This document shows positions 3,356-55,828 of a stretch of DNA of 64,000 nt, piece by piece. The DNA lies in NCBI GenBank assembly GCA_000403275.2, contig KE159599.1:397391-461390 (forward strand), read 5' to 3'. The translations under genes were made by a program, and so were the position numbers. The notes beneath the pieces are model-generated. The model was given only the letters and a program-made list of their open reading frames with translations, did not search any database and was not told the origin of the DNA. Within the stretch, counting starts at the first letter, position 1. The number at the start of each line of letters is the position of its first letter. The stretch comes from Lachnospiraceae bacterium 28-4. Lineage in GTDB: Bacteria; Bacillota; Clostridia; Lachnospirales; Lachnospiraceae.

Positions 3356-4309
3356 TTAATTTCCTCCCTGCTGCACAGTAGTGACCAGATCCAGATTTCT
3401 TTCATAAGTGGCGGATAAGCTGGTATTCTCACGGAACATCACATTGGAATCCCCATTTACCGCTATCTGCACCCGCCCCACATTAGGCAGTTCCACAAGA
3501 GTATTGACAAGGGAATAAATCGCTACGTCGGAACTGACATTATAAATCTGGGTCAGAAAATGTTCACTCAGATTCACATAACATGTTCCGTCTTTCAATG
3601 TCACCCCGATTACCTTCGTCTCAGGGTTCATCGTTGGATATACCTTATCTTTTACCTGCTCGCTCGGCCCTCCGATCAACTGTTCCACTACCAGCCTTTC
3701 CATGGAAATATTGGTGCTGTACCTGCTGTATTCCAACGTCCTGTTCGTTTCTATCAGTCTGTCCCCTTCCGCATTCGCAAAGTAAAGCCTTATCTTCACC
3801 CTTTCCCTGGAATTCATTTCGCTTTCCGTGTTATCGATAAACATATCGGCCGACATACTTCCGATCACATTTCCCGACATATCCAGAAGAGGATTGGAGC
3901 GTATCTGGAAAGAGACATAATCAACGCCCTTCACCTGCGTCATAGTACGCACTGTCGCCGCACGGGCAAGCACTTCCGTCGTCGGCGGCAGAGTGCGGTA
4001 ACGTTCATCGAAATTCAATACGAGCTGCCCTCCGTCCAAAGAATATCCGAGCAGTTCAAAGCTGCCCGAAAGAGGCGCTTTATATTCCATCCTCTCAGGA
4101 GTTGTCGTCAGCTGTTCCAGCAATTCGTCGATGACCTCTTCCTGGCTCCCGCCCTTTACCTCATACTCGTTGGCAGACAGTTTTGTTTCGTCCTTATTCA
4201 TTACATATATATTATAAACCCGGCTTCTGTCCGCCTCCTCCGCGCTTCCGCAGGAGACCGCAAAAAACAGGCTCAATAACAGGCAAACTAGCAGTCCTGA
4301 TTTTTTCAT
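3356..4309 (-). CDS. GerMN-domain lipoprotein
   Basis: The start chosen is the ATG at 4309, preceded by GGAGG at 5-base spacing; an ATG 12 bases upstream overlaps that site. The 317-residue product begins with MKKSG, a hydrophobic stretch and a Cys in AVSCGS, which fits a lipoprotein signal. Two GerMN-type repeats follow (about 55-160 and 190-300), the second with NPETKVIGVTLKDGTCYVNL. GerMN domains occur in the germination protein GerM and in WalRK-associated lipoproteins. The gene follows the histidine kinase after 18 bases and is probably co-transcribed, so it may act as the extracytoplasmic partner of that kinase. Role inferred. Confidence 0.82.
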   Translation of the reverse strand: MKKSGLLVCLLLSLFFAVSCGSAEEADRSRVYNIYVMNKDETKLSANEYEVKGGSQEEVIDELLEQLTTTPERMEYKAPLSGSFELLGYSLDGGQLVLNFDERYRTLPPTTEVLARAATVRTMTQVKGVDYVSFQIRSNPLLDMSGNVIGSMSADMFIDNTESEMNSRERVKIRLYFANAEGDRLIETNRTLEYSRYSTNISMERLVVEQLIGGPSEQVKDKVYPTMNPETKVIGVTLKDGTCYVNLSEHFLTQIYNVSSDVAIYSLVNTLVELPNVGRVQIAVNGDSNVMFRENTSLSATYERNLDLVTTVQQGGN

Positions 4310-51043: not shown

Positions 51044-51598
51044 TTATATATGGAAAAGCATTTCATATATGTGACGGCAGTCAGTTAGTTCCGGGTGGAA
51101 GGACAGGCCGATTTGCTTTTTGTACCGGACGGCCACAATGCGGCCGTCCACCTGTGCCAGAACTTCTGTTCCTTCGCCAGCTTCCACAATATAAGGGGCG
51201 CGTATGAACACCATTTTTGTCCGGCCTATCCCTTTCATATCCGCTTCCGTAACAAAGCTTCCAAGCTGGCGTCCATAGGCGTTCCGCTTTACTGTCACCG
51301 GCATTGTGGCCAGATGCGGAGTCCCGTCTGTGAGCTGCTTTGCCAGAAGAATCAGTCCTGCGCATGTGCCGAGAACGGGAAGTCCTTTTTCTATCTTTTC
51401 TTTTAATATATGGAGCAAATGATAATCTCTAAGGAGCTTTCCCATTGCCGTACTTTCTCCCCCCGGCAGGATCAGCGCATCAAAATCCTGATAAGCGTCT
51501 TTTTCCTGCCGGATTTCCATGTATTCCACGCCCATATCTTCCAATATACGTTCATGTTCCGCAAATGCTCCCTGCAGAGCCAGTACCGCCGCCCGCAT
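51044..51598 (-). CDS. pdxT: Pyridoxal 5'-phosphate synthase, glutaminase subunit
   Basis: A 184-residue class I glutaminase supplying ammonia to PdxS. The N-terminus [32 protein letters not shown], nucleophile Cys in LGTCAGLILLA and the His/Glu pair in LSFHPELT are all present. It overlaps the pdxS stop (ATGA or GTG alternative 3 bases upstream). PdxST makes vitamin B6 de novo without DXP. Confidence 0.95.
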   Translation of the reverse strand: MRAAVLALQGAFAEHERILEDMGVEYMEIRQEKDAYQDFDALILPGGESTAMGKLLRDYHLLHILKEKIEKGLPVLGTCAGLILLAKQLTDGTPHLATMPVTVKRNAYGRQLGSFVTEADMKGIGRTKMVFIRAPYIVEAGEGTEVLAQVDGRIVAVRYKKQIGLSFHPELTDCRHIYEMLFHI

Positions 51599-52470
51599 CA
51601 CTTTCCCCGCTCCGCCATAAGCAATTCGATTTCCGCTTCATTTATTCCCACCATCGCTTCTCCCAAGTCCTCCGACAGCTTTGCCAGCATGGCCGCATCT
51701 TTGTAATTGGTAACGGCTTTTACAATAGCAGCGGCCCTCTTTTCAGGGTTGCCCGACTTGAAAATACCGGAACCGACAAATACTCCCTCCGCGCCAAGCT
51801 GCATCATCAGCGCCGCGTCCGCCGGAGTGGCAATGCCTCCCGCCGCAAAATTCACTACCGGCAGCTTTTGGTTTTCATGGACATACAATACCAGATTATA
51901 CGGTGCTCCCAGCTCTTTTGCCGCCTGATACAATTCATCCTTCCGCATGGCGGCAATCTTTGCCATCTGCCCGTTTATTTTTCTCATATGGCGCACCGCC
52001 TGTACCACATCTCCCGTCCCAGGCTCCCCTTTTGTTCGGATCATGGACGCTCCCTCCGCGATTCTGCGCAACGCTTCCCCCAGATCTTTTGCGCCGCATA
52101 CGAAAGGAACGCGGAACTTTTCTTTATTAATATGGTAAACATCATCTGCCGGCGAAAGCACTTCGCTTTCATCAATATAATCGATCTCGATCGCTTCCAA
52201 TATCTGTGCTTCCGCGAAATGCCCGATGCGGCATTTTGCCATCACCGGAATCGAAACCGCCTCCTGGATGCCCCGGATCATCTTCGGATCGCTCATGCGG
52301 GCCACTCCTCCTGCCGCCCTGATATCCGCAGGGATCTTCTCCAGCGCCATGACAGCGCAAGCCCCCGCCTCCTGCGCGATCTTCGCCTGTTCCGGATTCG
52401 TCACGTCCATGATCACACCGCCTTTTAACATCTGTGCCAGTTGTTTATTCAGTTCATATCTTTCCTTCAT
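51598..52470 (-). CDS. pdxS: Pyridoxal 5'-phosphate synthase, lyase subunit
   Basis: A 290-residue TIM-barrel enzyme combining ribose 5-phosphate, glyceraldehyde 3-phosphate and ammonia into PLP. Marks are [20 protein letters not shown], the catalytic Lys regions [15 protein letters not shown] and [20 protein letters not shown]. The C-terminus is typical ([21 protein letters not shown]). The start at 52470 ([11 protein letters not shown]) follows a GAGG site that is part of a repeat element's edge; an ATG at 52509 lies inside that element. Regulation is likely by a PdxR-type activator and perhaps by the leader structure. Confidence 0.96.
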
Positions 52471-52479
52471 AAATTGCCT

Positions 52480-52541
52480 CATTTCTGCGCTGCTTTTTGC
52501 ATAGTTCAAGTTTGTGGATGCAGCGCGGACACAAACTTTGG
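52480..52541 (-). repeat. Pseudoknot-capable element, copy 1, in the pdxS leader
   Basis: Read on the minus strand, AAGTTTGTG and CACAAACTT form a 9-bp hairpin (52538-52508) with a 13-base loop containing GCGCTGC. A downstream GCAGCGC (52493-52487) is complementary to that loop over 7 bases and is followed at once by AGAAATGAGG, the pdxS ribosome binding site. The second copy is at 55728-55828 and shows a compensatory change. Confidence 0.6.
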
Positions 52542-52610
52542 AGTCTGCATTTTCTTATTTTTTTCCGGTCATGACCTGCAACGTAAACCTTAGATCTACT
52601 TCTTACCGCT

Positions 52611-52672
52611 ATTATAGCCATATCTGTATATATGAAAAGGTGCAATTTTGATCTAAATGACCATGCCACTTT
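52611..52672 (-). promoter_or_regulatory. Candidate PdxR-type operator and promoter of pdxST
   Basis: On the minus strand AAAGTGG (52672-52666) and AAAATTG (52649-52643) are direct repeats 23 bases apart. They are followed by CTTTTC (52639-52634), a 17-base spacer and TATAAT (52616-52611). The distance from the second repeat to the -10 is within one base of that in the ECF S-component promoter at 42872-42933. Confidence 0.6.
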
Positions 52673-52683
52673 GGATTTCTATG

Positions 52684-52712
52684 TTGTATTTTTTCTTCGG
52701 TTCGGGTAAAAT
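52684..52712 (+). promoter_or_regulatory. Promoter of the small gene at 52781
   Basis: TTGTAT (52684-52689), 17-base spacer, TAAAAT (52707-52712). It is divergent from the pdxST promoter, with the operator block of pdxST ending 12 bases upstream. A GTCTG/CAGAC hairpin (52740-52762) lies in the leader. Confidence 0.5.
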
Positions 52713-52780
52713 ATTGGTAAGACACTCGATAGAAATCTCTGTCTGGGGCAAGGCCCGCAGACCTAGGAAGGGAGAAAGGT

Positions 52781-53080
52781 ATGCAAAAGAAATATGAACG
52801 AGCTTCTTTAATCGTAACGGCAGAACAATATGAGCTGGATAAGGGACTGGAAGACGGCTTTGAATTATATACCAAGGTCATTACCAACGGCTGGATCAGC
52901 ACCGACGGCCTGTTCAAGCTCACCCGCCCGGACGGCTCCGTGGTATGCCCGTTTATCCAGAACAGGCGAGGGGTTATCTTTATCCGCGAAGGCGACTATA
53001 TCATTACGGAAAACGACCATGAACGCCATGTGTGCGGAGCGGATAAATTTTTCAAACGTTTTACCCCTGTAGAAGACTAA
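52781..53080 (+). CDS. Hypothetical protein, 99 residues
   Basis: A soluble protein starting MQKKYERASLIVTAEQYELDK. The middle (ISTDGLFKLTRPDGSVVCPF and NRRGVIFIREGDYIITE) looks like a small beta barrel; the C-terminus has HERHVCGADKFFKRF. GGGAGAAAGG precedes the ATG. It is divergent from pdxST. No family recognised; the 73-base gap to cutC suggests possible co-transcription. Confidence 0.65.
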   Translation: MQKKYERASLIVTAEQYELDKGLEDGFELYTKVITNGWISTDGLFKLTRPDGSVVCPFIQNRRGVIFIREGDYIITENDHERHVCGADKFFKRFTPVED

Positions 53081-53153
53081 CCGGTAAAAACATCTGTAAA
53101 GCAGATGATAATCCGCATAAAAAACAGCTTGGGGAAAGGGTATTATTGTTCAA

Positions 53154-53933
53154 ATGAAAATTTCCACGGAAAATAAAGGCCGAAACGGCGGAAAATACAT
53201 CTTGGAATGCTGTGTGGACAGCGTGGAATCGGCGCTTCAAGCCGAAAAAGGCGGTGCGGACCGGCTGGAACTTTGTTCCAATCTGGTCATAGGCGGCACT
53301 ACGCCTACCCTCGCCCTGTTCCGGCAGATACGGGAACATACGAATATCCCCATCCATGTCCTTCTCCGTCCCCGTTTCGGCGATTTTCTATATACGGATC
53401 AGGAACTTGGCATCATCGCCAAAGAAATCGATATGTTTCGCGAAGCCGGGGCGGAGGGCATCGTAATCGGCTGTCTGAAACCCGACGGCAATCTGGATCT
53501 TGAAGCGATGCGTTCTTTGATAGACCATAGCGGTCAAATGAAGATCACTTTGCACCGTGCTTTTGACATGTGCGTCAATCCTTTCCACACATTGGAACTT
53601 GCGAAATCTCTTGGCATTCATGCGATTCTCACCTCAGGCTGCCAGCCCTCCTGCCTGGAAGGTATTGACTTAATCAGGCAACTGGATGAAAAAGCGGAGG
53701 GTCGGATTGCTATCATGGCGGGAGCCGGTATCCAGGAAAACAGCGCAAAGATCCTGAAGGAACAGACAAAGATCACCTCTTTTCATATGTCCGGCAAAAA
53801 AATCCGGGAAAGCGGAATGCAATTCCGCAATCCTAATGTTGCCATGGGACTGCCGGGTATGGGAGAATATGAAATATGGGAAACCTCTGCCGATGCGGTT
53901 GCCGCCGTCCGAAAAGTACTCTCCGGTTATTGA
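53154..53933 (+). CDS. cutC: CutC-family TIM-barrel protein
   Basis: A 259-residue protein starting MKISTENKGRNGGKYILE. Family marks are ECCVDSVESALQAEKGGADRLELC, LRPRFGDFLYT, VIGCLKPDGNLD and TLHRAFDMC. CutC was linked to copper handling, but its reaction is unknown. The N-terminal 12 residues are longer than usual, so translation could start later, although no better ATG follows. It is followed by a bidirectional terminator. Confidence 0.9.
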   Translation: MKISTENKGRNGGKYILECCVDSVESALQAEKGGADRLELCSNLVIGGTTPTLALFRQIREHTNIPIHVLLRPRFGDFLYTDQELGIIAKEIDMFREAGAEGIVIGCLKPDGNLDLEAMRSLIDHSGQMKITLHRAFDMCVNPFHTLELAKSLGIHAILTSGCQPSCLEGIDLIRQLDEKAEGRIAIMAGAGIQENSAKILKEQTKITSFHMSGKKIRESGMQFRNPNVAMGLPGMGEYEIWETSADAVAAVRKVLSGY

Positions 53934-54013
53934 TCCGAAAAGATTGCACTGCTGGCACGGCAGCCGAATCGCAAATGGATACTCCATTGCCAGCTGCAGG
54001 ACTTTTGATTTAC

Positions 54014-54077
54014 AAAAAAAAGCGCCGGACATTCTATCTTCATAACCCGAAGACAGAACGTCCGGCATTTCATTTTT
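54014..54077. terminator. Bidirectional terminator between cutC and the GH13 gene
   Basis: GCCGGAC (54024-54030) pairs with GTCCGGC (54060-54066), with additional pairing inside (TTCTATCTTC/GAAGACAGAA). An A-run lies on the left (54014-54021) and a T-rich run on the right (to 54077). It serves both convergent genes. Confidence 0.85.
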
Positions 54078-54084
54078 TCTCTGT

Positions 54085-55395
54085 TTATCTCTCCATTTTC
54101 CAGAAATAAGCGCTGTAAGGAGGAAGTTCACTGCCGCCTCCGAAATCATGCGCTTCTCCGCTGATCAGGTCTACCGCCGTACCGCATCCTGCATCAAAAT
54201 GAGCCGTAAAGCTCTCGCCGTCCGCATTAACAGCCACCAGCACCCTCTCCTGATCTGTCTTTCTTTCAAAAATACACTGCTTATTTGTCAAAACAACAGA
54301 ACGGAAAGCTCCGTAGTTTAATGCCTCCGAATTCTTCTTCGCCTCCGCCAGCTTTGAAATAAATTCCGACAGTTCGTTAAAGACCGGTTCCGCAAAGCTC
54401 GCCCGCAGCGCCGGGTCGCCTTCGCTCTTATTTGCTTTTGCCCCCCATTCGCTTCCGTAATACACGCACGGAATCCCCGGCATGCCGAAACAAATAGCAT
54501 AGATCAGCGGCAAATGCTTCTCATTCGTCAATATGCTGGCAATTCTCGATACATCGTGGTTATCCACAAAAGAAAGAAGATGTTTTCCTTTGTACAAAGT
54601 CCAGTTTTCCGGCCCGAACTGCCGCATCAGCGAATGATTGATCTCAAACATATTCATGCTGTTAAAGCTGGAATGAAGTCCCTTATAACATTCATAGTTT
54701 GTAGCGGAATGCAGCATCCCGTCGTTCATCATCTGGTTATAATCCCCATGGAGCATCTCGCCCACGAGGAAAAACTCATTCTTCTTTCCATCCGTAAAAT
54801 TCCTTAACCGGCGCACGAAATCATGATCCAGGCAATACGCCACATCCAGCCTAAGCCCGTCAATATCAAACTCGTCGATCCAGGAAGCCACGCTGTCGAA
54901 AATATGCCCGATCACTTCTTCATTTCTAAGGTTCAGCTTCACCAGATCATAGTTGCCCTCCCAGCCTTCATACCAGAGGCCGTCGTTATAATTGGAATTT
55001 CCTCCCAGATTAATATGGAACCAATTCAGGTAAGGGGAATGCTCCCTGTTTTTCAGCACGTCCTGAAACTGGGTAAATCCTCTCCCCACATGATTGAAAA
55101 CACCGTCCAGCACGATACGGATTCCATTTTCATGCAGCTTTTCGCATACCTTTTTAAAATCCTCATTCGTCCCAAGTCTGCCGTCTATCTTCCTGTAATC
55201 CCTCGTATTATACCCATGAGTATCCGATTCAAACACAGGCGAAAAATAAACTGCGTTTATCCCCAGCTTCTTCATATGGGGGATCCAATCCAATACTTTC
55301 AGTATCCTTGATTCCACCACGCCGTCGTTTTCAAAAGGCGCTCCACAAAAACCCAGTGGATAGATCTGATAAAAAACGCTTTCATATGCCCACAT
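54085..55395 (-). CDS. GH13-family alpha-amylase (neopullulanase/maltogenic type)
   Basis: A 436-residue intracellular glycosidase; there is no signal peptide. Catalytic regions: GIRIVLDGVFNHVGRGF (region I), DGLRLDVAYCLD with nucleophile Asp (II), FFLVGEMLHGDY with acid/base Glu (III) and LLSFVDNHDVSRIAS (IV). The C-terminal domain (about 360-436) is a beta sandwich. It lacks the N-terminal domain of neopullulanases, so it is a short cytosolic alpha-glucan hydrolase for maltodextrins. No sugar-transport genes are adjacent. Confidence 0.92.
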   Translation of the reverse strand: MWAYESVFYQIYPLGFCGAPFENDGVVESRILKVLDWIPHMKKLGINAVYFSPVFESDTHGYNTRDYRKIDGRLGTNEDFKKVCEKLHENGIRIVLDGVFNHVGRGFTQFQDVLKNREHSPYLNWFHINLGGNSNYNDGLWYEGWEGNYDLVKLNLRNEEVIGHIFDSVASWIDEFDIDGLRLDVAYCLDHDFVRRLRNFTDGKKNEFFLVGEMLHGDYNQMMNDGMLHSATNYECYKGLHSSFNSMNMFEINHSLMRQFGPENWTLYKGKHLLSFVDNHDVSRIASILTNEKHLPLIYAICFGMPGIPCVYYGSEWGAKANKSEGDPALRASFAEPVFNELSEFISKLAEAKKNSEALNYGAFRSVVLTNKQCIFERKTDQERVLVAVNADGESFTAHFDAGCGTAVDLISGEAHDFGGGSELPPYSAYFWKMER

Positions 55396-55727
55396 CTTAT
55401 TATTCCTCCTAATTCCAATATGCCATTGCCAGATTTTTTAACCTTTTTCATTTTACCACAAAATCTTCTGTTTTTATATAAAAATATTTAGCCCGTATAA
55501 TTTGACCCAACCGGTATTTTGCAATATCTGAAAGAAATGACTTGCAAAATAAAAATTTTATATTTCCCTCCCTATTTTTCTTTCCTTCGACCTTTTTCAA
55601 AAAGAAATCCCCAAAATCCACAGAGTTATCCACATATGACATCTATGTCATATAATATGACTCATAAATCATTTTAAGGAAATTATGACGTCACCAGGCT
55701 TCATTTTATACTTTTCATGTTTTACTC
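55396..55727. other. AT-rich spacer with a single DnaA box
   Basis: About 330 bases with no convincing gene; a 64-residue open frame on the minus strand (55448-55642) has no ribosome site and low complexity. The stretch contains one perfect DnaA box TTATCCACA (55626-55634) and a small ATATGACAT/ATGTCATAT hairpin (about 55632-55652). Promoters for the GH13 gene and endonuclease IV flank it. Confidence 0.5.
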
Positions 55728-55828
55728 CATTTCTGCGCGGCTTTATTGCGCAAAGCCAGCCTGGCTTTCAAGTTTGTGGATGCCGCGCAGACACAAACTT
55801 GGGATTGAAAATTTTTAATTTTCAATCT
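55728..55828 (-). repeat. Pseudoknot-capable element, copy 2
   Basis: Read on the minus strand, hairpin AAGTTTGTG/CACAAACTT has a loop with TGCGCGGC. The downstream strand GCCGCGCA (55743-55736) pairs with it over 8 bases and is followed by GAAATGGAG. Between them is an extra AAAGCCA/TGGCTTT hairpin. Upstream of the main hairpin is a GATTGAAAAT/ATTTTCAATC hairpin. No gene follows on this strand apart from a five-codon open frame. Confidence 0.6.

Follow-up and report, generated by a model that had tools for sequence, protein, structure and literature searches.

A 64,000-nucleotide (nt) stretch of contig KE159599.1 of Lachnospiraceae bacterium 28-4 (hereafter the window) carries on its minus strand two copies of a small pseudoknot-forming element, one of them just upstream of the start codon of pdxS. 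On the basis of sequence comparisons, we consider it probable that this is a non-autonomous mobile element of about 35–110 bp, which lands in translation-initiation regions, is tolerated there through the ribosome-binding site that it rebuilds and belongs, as sampled, to a single bacterial family. A unit consists of an optional A/T-rich hairpin (P0), a hairpin (P1) with a pseudoknot-forming loop, the partner strand of that loop, an extended Shine-Dalgarno (SD) sequence and TAAA or a similar end. Insertion would take place between the SD of the host gene and its start codon, and translation would then continue from the SD of the element; it is presumably because this new SD comes at the correct distance that insertions are tolerated. 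The SD tail would thereby serve the self-preservation of the element, enabling it to survive where other elements would silence the gene, and movement might proceed via an RNA copied from its 3′ end.

Copy number, start codons and empty sites

The original prediction concerned an element in two copies; its description of them holds, but its copy number does not, since we are dealing with a dispersed family of dozens of copies. The exact hairpin pattern has 17 matches in the 4.28 Mb of the 28-4 genome, against 0 for the reversed pattern. Searching this genome and its relatives with a covariance model, as had been suggested together with the prediction, brought many more copies and, as detailed below, compensatory pairs. 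The model, R1, in which P1 is the only structure modelled, gave 49 matches in the 28-4 genome at an expectation value (E) ≤0.01, and 66 at E≤1, the latter including weak matches and no fewer than two that read the palindrome in antisense. At E≤0.01, copies are present in 10 out of 16 genomes of the genus, 28-4 included, and in none of the remaining six; the highest counts are at least 141, 115 and 94, in G005, G004 and G008, respectively (genomes and loci are referred to by our own G and L numbers), and these largest counts may be low, the best 150 candidates having been scored per genome. Broader samples, for which the best 12 candidates per genome were scored and E≤1e-4 was required, gave matches in 36 of 397 genomes (34 of 334 genera) at the level of the family and in 2 of 391 at the level of the class, i.e. 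in 28-4 itself and in G272, which is of the same family. Seven copies of the 28-4 genome are identical across 76 nt, which points to recent proliferation.

The copies stand in the sense orientation relative to the downstream genes, and an ATG is found at the modal spacing in 114 of the 155 parsed copies and at most one base off in 140 of them, the chance of an ATG at a given position being, by arithmetic only, about 1/64. In this count L082 and L275 could not be parsed, the place of L061/L322, at least, was counted twice, and seven poor loci (L087–L089, L091, L092, L115 and L118) were left out, as they were from the alignment described below. An open reading frame (ORF) of at least 50 codons follows 40 of 44 copies in 28-4, 15 of 22 in G012, 21 of 23 in G008 and 17 of 19 in G004. 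Which genes lie downstream had been raised as a question along with the prediction: in 28-4 they include, as read from their translations, pdxS, folD, metF, hisC, leuD, ilvD, secG, thiI and hom, a functionally unrelated set with no common theme. Copy counts, tail and ATG spacing support one of the two natures originally proposed, that of a dispersed structured repeat with its own ribosome-binding site. In fourteen cases the parsed copy opens an ORF shorter than 50 codons, at least two of them being parsing artefacts (L102 has a long ORF and L103 a GTG at the place). Because nine of the 14 have an ATG at the modal spacing, there is a hint of targeting of the ATG context itself, with small genes or errors of assembly as other possibilities; at two of these places the codon of the relative is GTG (L025) and ACG (L036).

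Evidence of insertion comes from 30 element-bearing loci of 28-4, chosen for available orthologues and compared with G009 (29 loci) or G015 (one locus), a set that leaves out further orthologues found in G015 and G003. A strict empty site, defined by a left flank of ≥90 nt with ≥75% identity, a right flank that starts within 2 nt and a gap of ≤4 nt in the relative (thresholds fixed after the alignments were inspected), was recognized in 17 of the 30 pairs. Examples from the relatives, with ^ at the place of the insert, are GAGGAAAT^TATTATG (L034), GGAGGATAA^CAATG (L020), GAGAAA^AAGTG (L025), AGGAATAA^AAAAATG (L044) and GGAGGAAA^AAGATG (L361). The insert lies 3′ of the host SD and ends on the right some 2 nt short of the start codon. 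Elements are also found in the SD tail of older elements, at L067 and L070, both with two R1 matches about 110 nt apart, as well as at L023 and L061. Neither this apparent mobility nor the placement within the interval from SD to start codon had been foreseen.

Two loci are worth mentioning on their own account. At L176 (positions 3738–3908), close to where a contig of ‘Clostridia bacterium SZUA-448’ ends, at least two elements stand head to tail, each with an upstream hairpin, as if the element kept inserting behind its own SD. At L018 (G000, contig C1, at about 982 kb), the end of a recent copy is separated by about 48 nt from the start of the gene downstream, whose product reads like a large serine recombinase; at the usual spacing, ATA replaces ATG.

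RNA structure and the copies in the window

The structure was assessed on an alignment of 111 rows, 98 of them distinct, obtained from R1 matches in 100 chosen loci, the copies used to build R1 included; the four rows that read the palindrome in antisense and a few misaligned ones were counted against pairing. P1 is paired in 97.5% of the cells and all nine of its pairs show changes on both sides. For the pseudoknot helix, which lies outside the R1 model, 92.7% of the cells are paired and double changes occur in five of eight pairs; the double-changed cells amount to 46, versus 12.3 ± 2.8 in shuffles and no more than 13 with the partner strand slid, and none of 500 shuffles reached the observed values for paired cells, double-changed cells or covariation score. 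The covariation of both helices thus supports the H-type pseudoknot originally proposed, and the two outcomes that had been named as contrary to it, namely independent variation of loop and partner strand and random placement of the copies relative to start codons, are not what we observe. Loop and partner fit by eye in other species too, as in Butyribacter intestini L152 (GCACAC/GTGTGC) and in L165. An alternative hairpin between UGCGC of the linker and GCGCA is not supported for P1-bearing copies (77.6% paired versus 76.5 ± 0.6% in shuffles, 25 out of 500 being as high); it can form in copies devoid of P1.

In the window, the hairpin with its 13-nt loop and complementary downstream strand is borne out at both copies. 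Copy 1 comprises P1 at 52508–52538 (AAGTTTGTG, the loop and CACAAACTT), the pseudoknot loop strand GCGCTGC at 52520–52526 and the downstream strand GCAGCGC at 52487–52493, which is followed directly, as had been described, by the SD region of pdxS, i.e. the extended SD AGAAATGAGG at 52477–52486; pdxS itself occupies 51598–52470 on the same minus strand, its start codon being the ATG at 52468–52470. Because a TATAAT that is probably the −10 box of the pdxS promoter stands upstream of copy 1 (52611–52616, minus strand), this copy should lie in the leader of the pdxS mRNA; the congener G015 has a TATAAT at a comparable place upstream of pdxS. Copy 2, also on the minus strand, carries a perfect A/T-rich P0 (GATTGAAAATTAAAAATTTTCAATC, 55803–55827) just upstream of P1 (55770–55800, with GCGCGGC in its loop) and continues with an optional inner hairpin, P2 (AAAGCCAGGCTGGCTTT, 55752–55768), the downstream strand GCCGCGC (55735–55741) and the extended SD AGAAATGGAG (55725–55734), behind which an ATG at the standard spacing (55716–55718) opens an ORF of five codons only (MKSIK). 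P0, as well as the ribosome-binding tail of copy 2 and its equally spaced ATG, had been overlooked in the original prediction. The 10-mer CACAAACTTG occurs three times in the window, versus 0.04 expected.

Over the family, P0 hairpins of at least 8 bp adjoin P1 in 20 of 43 copies of 28-4, 62 of 82 of congeners and 7 of 24 of other genera; as controls, a region farther upstream gave 5, 8 and 3, and shuffled sequence 2, 2 and 1. The segment that separates P1 from the downstream strand contains extra hairpins that differ by subfamily, e.g. AAACTCAAATGAATTTGAG, in L289, L290, L292–L294 and L296 of G008 and also in L037, L046 and L063, and is apparently free to vary. The conserved tail AGAAATGAGGT is one base off AGAAAGGAGGT, the sequence complementary to the 16S 3′ end that is usual among Firmicutes. 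Extended SD pairing has been reported to matter in Staphylococcus aureus (PMC13009471). As a separate observation, L087 has P1 and lacks the downstream strand and the usual tail, i.e. it is altered at its 3′ side.

When folded without a pseudoknot, copy 1 pairs the 5′ arm of P1 with GAGG, at −15.5 kcal/mol versus −8.2 kcal/mol for P1 alone, a fold that could act as an off state. With copy 2 the result changes with the stretch folded: the SD is partly paired with the P1 arm in one stretch, and in a longer one without P0 the best fold keeps P1. The pseudoknot, by contrast, is predicted to leave the SD free; it would thus keep the SD of the element accessible and, because the nested alternative pairs the 5′ arm of P1 with the SD of copy 1, may make the site regulable. 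As far as such predicted folds go, regulation of translation by the element is possible.

Short variants and competing explanations

Copies without a recognizable P1 have instead a short hairpin, with the same GYGCA strand as its 3′ arm, followed by the same SD tail. Out of 71 pattern matches, 20 places were selected where R1 matched weakly or not at all; 16 of them have an ATG at the modal spacing, and a few of the 20 (e.g. L356 and L363) may be chance. The short form is an insertion as well, because five of eight such loci pass the empty-site comparison with G009, three without P0 (L361, L365 and L371) and two with it (L362 and L375). R2, a slightly impure model of the short form that favours start codons because it includes the ATG, has matches at E≤0.01 in 14 of the 16 genomes of the genus; they are numerous only alongside R1 copies, the six genomes without R1 copies having 0 or 1 match each. 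The 5′ ends also vary. Out of nine copies that form one recent subfamily with a common 61-nt core, five have a full P0 and four lack it, three of the latter starting at CC; other copies, with the same 3′ end, start in the loop (L392) or the 3′ arm (L383) of P1 or near its 3′ base (L361, L371 and L379). In partly truncated and P1-less copies alike, the 3′ end and the ATG spacing are unchanged.

The combination of a constant 3′ end with varied 5′ ends favours, without proving it, an RNA intermediate. Element RNA would be joined at initiation regions and reverse transcribed 3′ end first, a form of the mobile-element explanation that we advance only tentatively. The 3′ end is constant at the SD tail while the starts are found at the outer P0 edge, at CC inside P0 and within or near P1; the sense orientation, targets resembling initiation regions and the lack of an obvious target duplication agree with such a route. 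However, the direct joining of P0 to the short hairpin in L362, L375 and L092 is an internal loss rather than a 5′ truncation, most P0-bearing copies have one sharp 5′ edge in common, and the empty-site support does not extend to L392, L383 and L379; moreover, decay could strip the 5′ part of older copies, the SD tail alone being needed. A more specific version, which appears doubtful, is a bacterial retroelement similar to short interspersed nuclear elements (SINEs), operating at initiation regions perhaps via ribosome-bound mRNA; it would be copied 3′ end first between SD and start codon and would survive because its own end restores the ribosome-binding site. Movement as DNA by a Y1 transposase, as for IS200/IS605- or REP/RAYT-like elements, would account for a hairpin-rich, asymmetric element without target duplication and with a right end, GGAGTAAA, similar to the target on the left side of the insertion. 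We nevertheless find it very unlikely: Y1 transposases (PF01797) were found in 13 of the 16 genomes but not in G004, G014 and G015, with 115, 12 and 30 copies, whereas G002, G007 and G011 have 5, 10 and 4 Y1 matches and yet no copies at E≤0.01. An extinct or distant Y1 transposase may be the mobiliser. By eye, the empty-site alignments reveal no clear target-site duplication, a few shared A residues being ambiguous, and the ends (AAGATTG or AAGAGTG on the left, GAGGTAAA or GGAGTAAA on the right) no terminal inverted repeats; neither feature of a miniature inverted-repeat transposable element derived from a DDE transposon was thus observed. A carrier plasmid or phage was discarded: the plasmid search gave no match to the element, and the 15 matching phage records out of 50,697, all unannotated faecal ‘Bacteriophage sp.’ contigs, as well as the single viral contig with the exact pattern, may be bacterial DNA.

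One may also ask whether the copies are a cis-regulatory RNA serving a large regulon, whose pseudoknot would bind a protein, a small RNA or a metabolite and so expose or hide the SD, the copies having spread as a useful control. Covariation of two helices, P1 and the pseudoknot, immediately 5′ of the SD is what such a device would display, as are the exclusive folds in which the 5′ arm of P1 pairs with the SD (copy 1 and one stretch of copy 2), and metF (L024, L325) and a biotin-carrier-like gene (L044, L312) carry copies in two genomes. But the functional disparity of the downstream genes, the nine copies at modal spacing before the ATG of tiny ORFs, the relatives that manage pdxS without the element, the recent proliferation suggested by the seven identical 76-nt copies and the retention of P1 in the best fold of the longer copy 2 stretch make it, in our opinion, unlikely. 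Still less can be said for a riboswitch of pdxS responding to pyridoxal phosphate (PLP) or vitamin B6, to which practically no credence can be given in spite of the copy at this gene. Among the nine genomes of the genus that have pdxS, only 28-4 has the element there, and in the pdxS leaders of 80 named relatives neither R1 nor R2 has a match at E<0.1 (the leader in L165 has a 22-nt R2 match with E=0.17). We reject it because the element is absent at pdxS in eight congeners and 80 other relatives; the other copies, besides, precede unrelated genes. The pdxS-specific regulator or PLP sensor of the original prediction is, on the same grounds, not supported.

Several points weigh against a mobile element as well. 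No mobilising gene was found, the Y1 family, which does not track copy number, being the only one searched. For five of the 155 copies no ATG lies within range, in one case (L070) owing to interruption by a younger copy, and the exact ATG spacing could result from selection instead of targeting. Four pairs of copies stand at the same gene in two genomes (L024/L325, L044/L312, L052/L289 and L090/L097, with protein identities of at least 63%), which can be due to inheritance, repeated targeting or benefit. The empty-site comparison failed at 13 of the 30 loci, including pdxS (29-nt gap) and copy 2 of the window, owing to diverged flanks, larger gaps or occupation of both genomes (L027 and L372), with L023 and L374 as near-misses on identity and L042 and L037 on gap; six further regions of G015, outside the 30, mostly aligned poorly upstream. 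Finally, the count of double-changed pairs in the pseudoknot is unexceptional, being matched by 70 of 500 shuffles, and the covariation controls ignore shared ancestry.

Relation to known repeats and minor observations

Most mobile elements avoid or break genes; the one described here occupies the few bases at which a gene is most sensitive, and the gene apparently stays readable by means of the SD that the element brings. Insertion just before start codons as a target habit is, to our knowledge, not known from any described mobile element, and we regard the element as a small dispersed mobile repeat, i.e. of a known kind, with a target habit that is new to us. REP/RAYT and IS200/IS605-derived palindromic elements are likewise small, hairpin-forming, non-autonomous and without target duplication; unlike them, the present element is not correlated with Y1 genes and targets the interval between SD and start codon. 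BOX, RUP and SPRITE of Streptococcus pneumoniae are also small dispersed RNA-structured repeats, judged parasitic and likely to affect co-transcribed genes, but the abstract of that study makes no mention of a pseudoknot abutting the SD or of an exact placement at start codons (PMC3049150). The TAACTGA repeats of marine Beggiatoaceae resemble our element in that many copies lie directly upstream of starts, mostly in the forward orientation and without a functional pattern among the genes; they are described as simple heptamers with little SD character, before genes mostly without an SD, whereas the element here is structured, brings an extended SD and is matched by empty sites in relatives (PMC4679880). 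Candidates of the MRSC-65-2 type are multicopy structured motifs as well, classed as probably selfish; that class is described as recognized by inconsistent gene orientation and nearby transposases, in contrast to the near-constant orientation and ATG distance seen here (PMC11109978). No description of the element itself was found at the level of titles and abstract openings, most subscription papers and all preprints being outside the coverage.

With more than 100 copies in some gut species, the element could reset the translation of a noticeable number of genes, and its copies could constitute a natural library of how structure adjacent to the SD tunes initiation. It could also point to an integration machinery that appears to recognize initiation regions.

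Some minor observations concern the pdxS leaders and related loci. The leader of L134 reads TGCAGAAATGAGG-N6-ATG and resembles the tail of the element minus its stems. Immediately after pdxS, L143 matches R2 with E=1e-4 and R1 with E=0.86, where a copy perhaps precedes the next gene. Both L143 and L149 have a different hairpin-like stretch, CTGYGCGGCTTCG, before the pdxS SD, which may be unrelated. Searches of Rfam gave no family above the gathering threshold at either window copy and, at nine divergent loci, only T-box and tRNA as passing matches, both elsewhere in the loci; in one of another genus, a T-box leader (L111, positions 5–232) is close to a divergent copy. Lastly, between a CutC-like and a GH13-like gene of the window there is a strong hairpin with A/T runs on either side (54024–54066); setting aside a weak match to mir-7385, attributed to chance, it is probably a bidirectional terminator.

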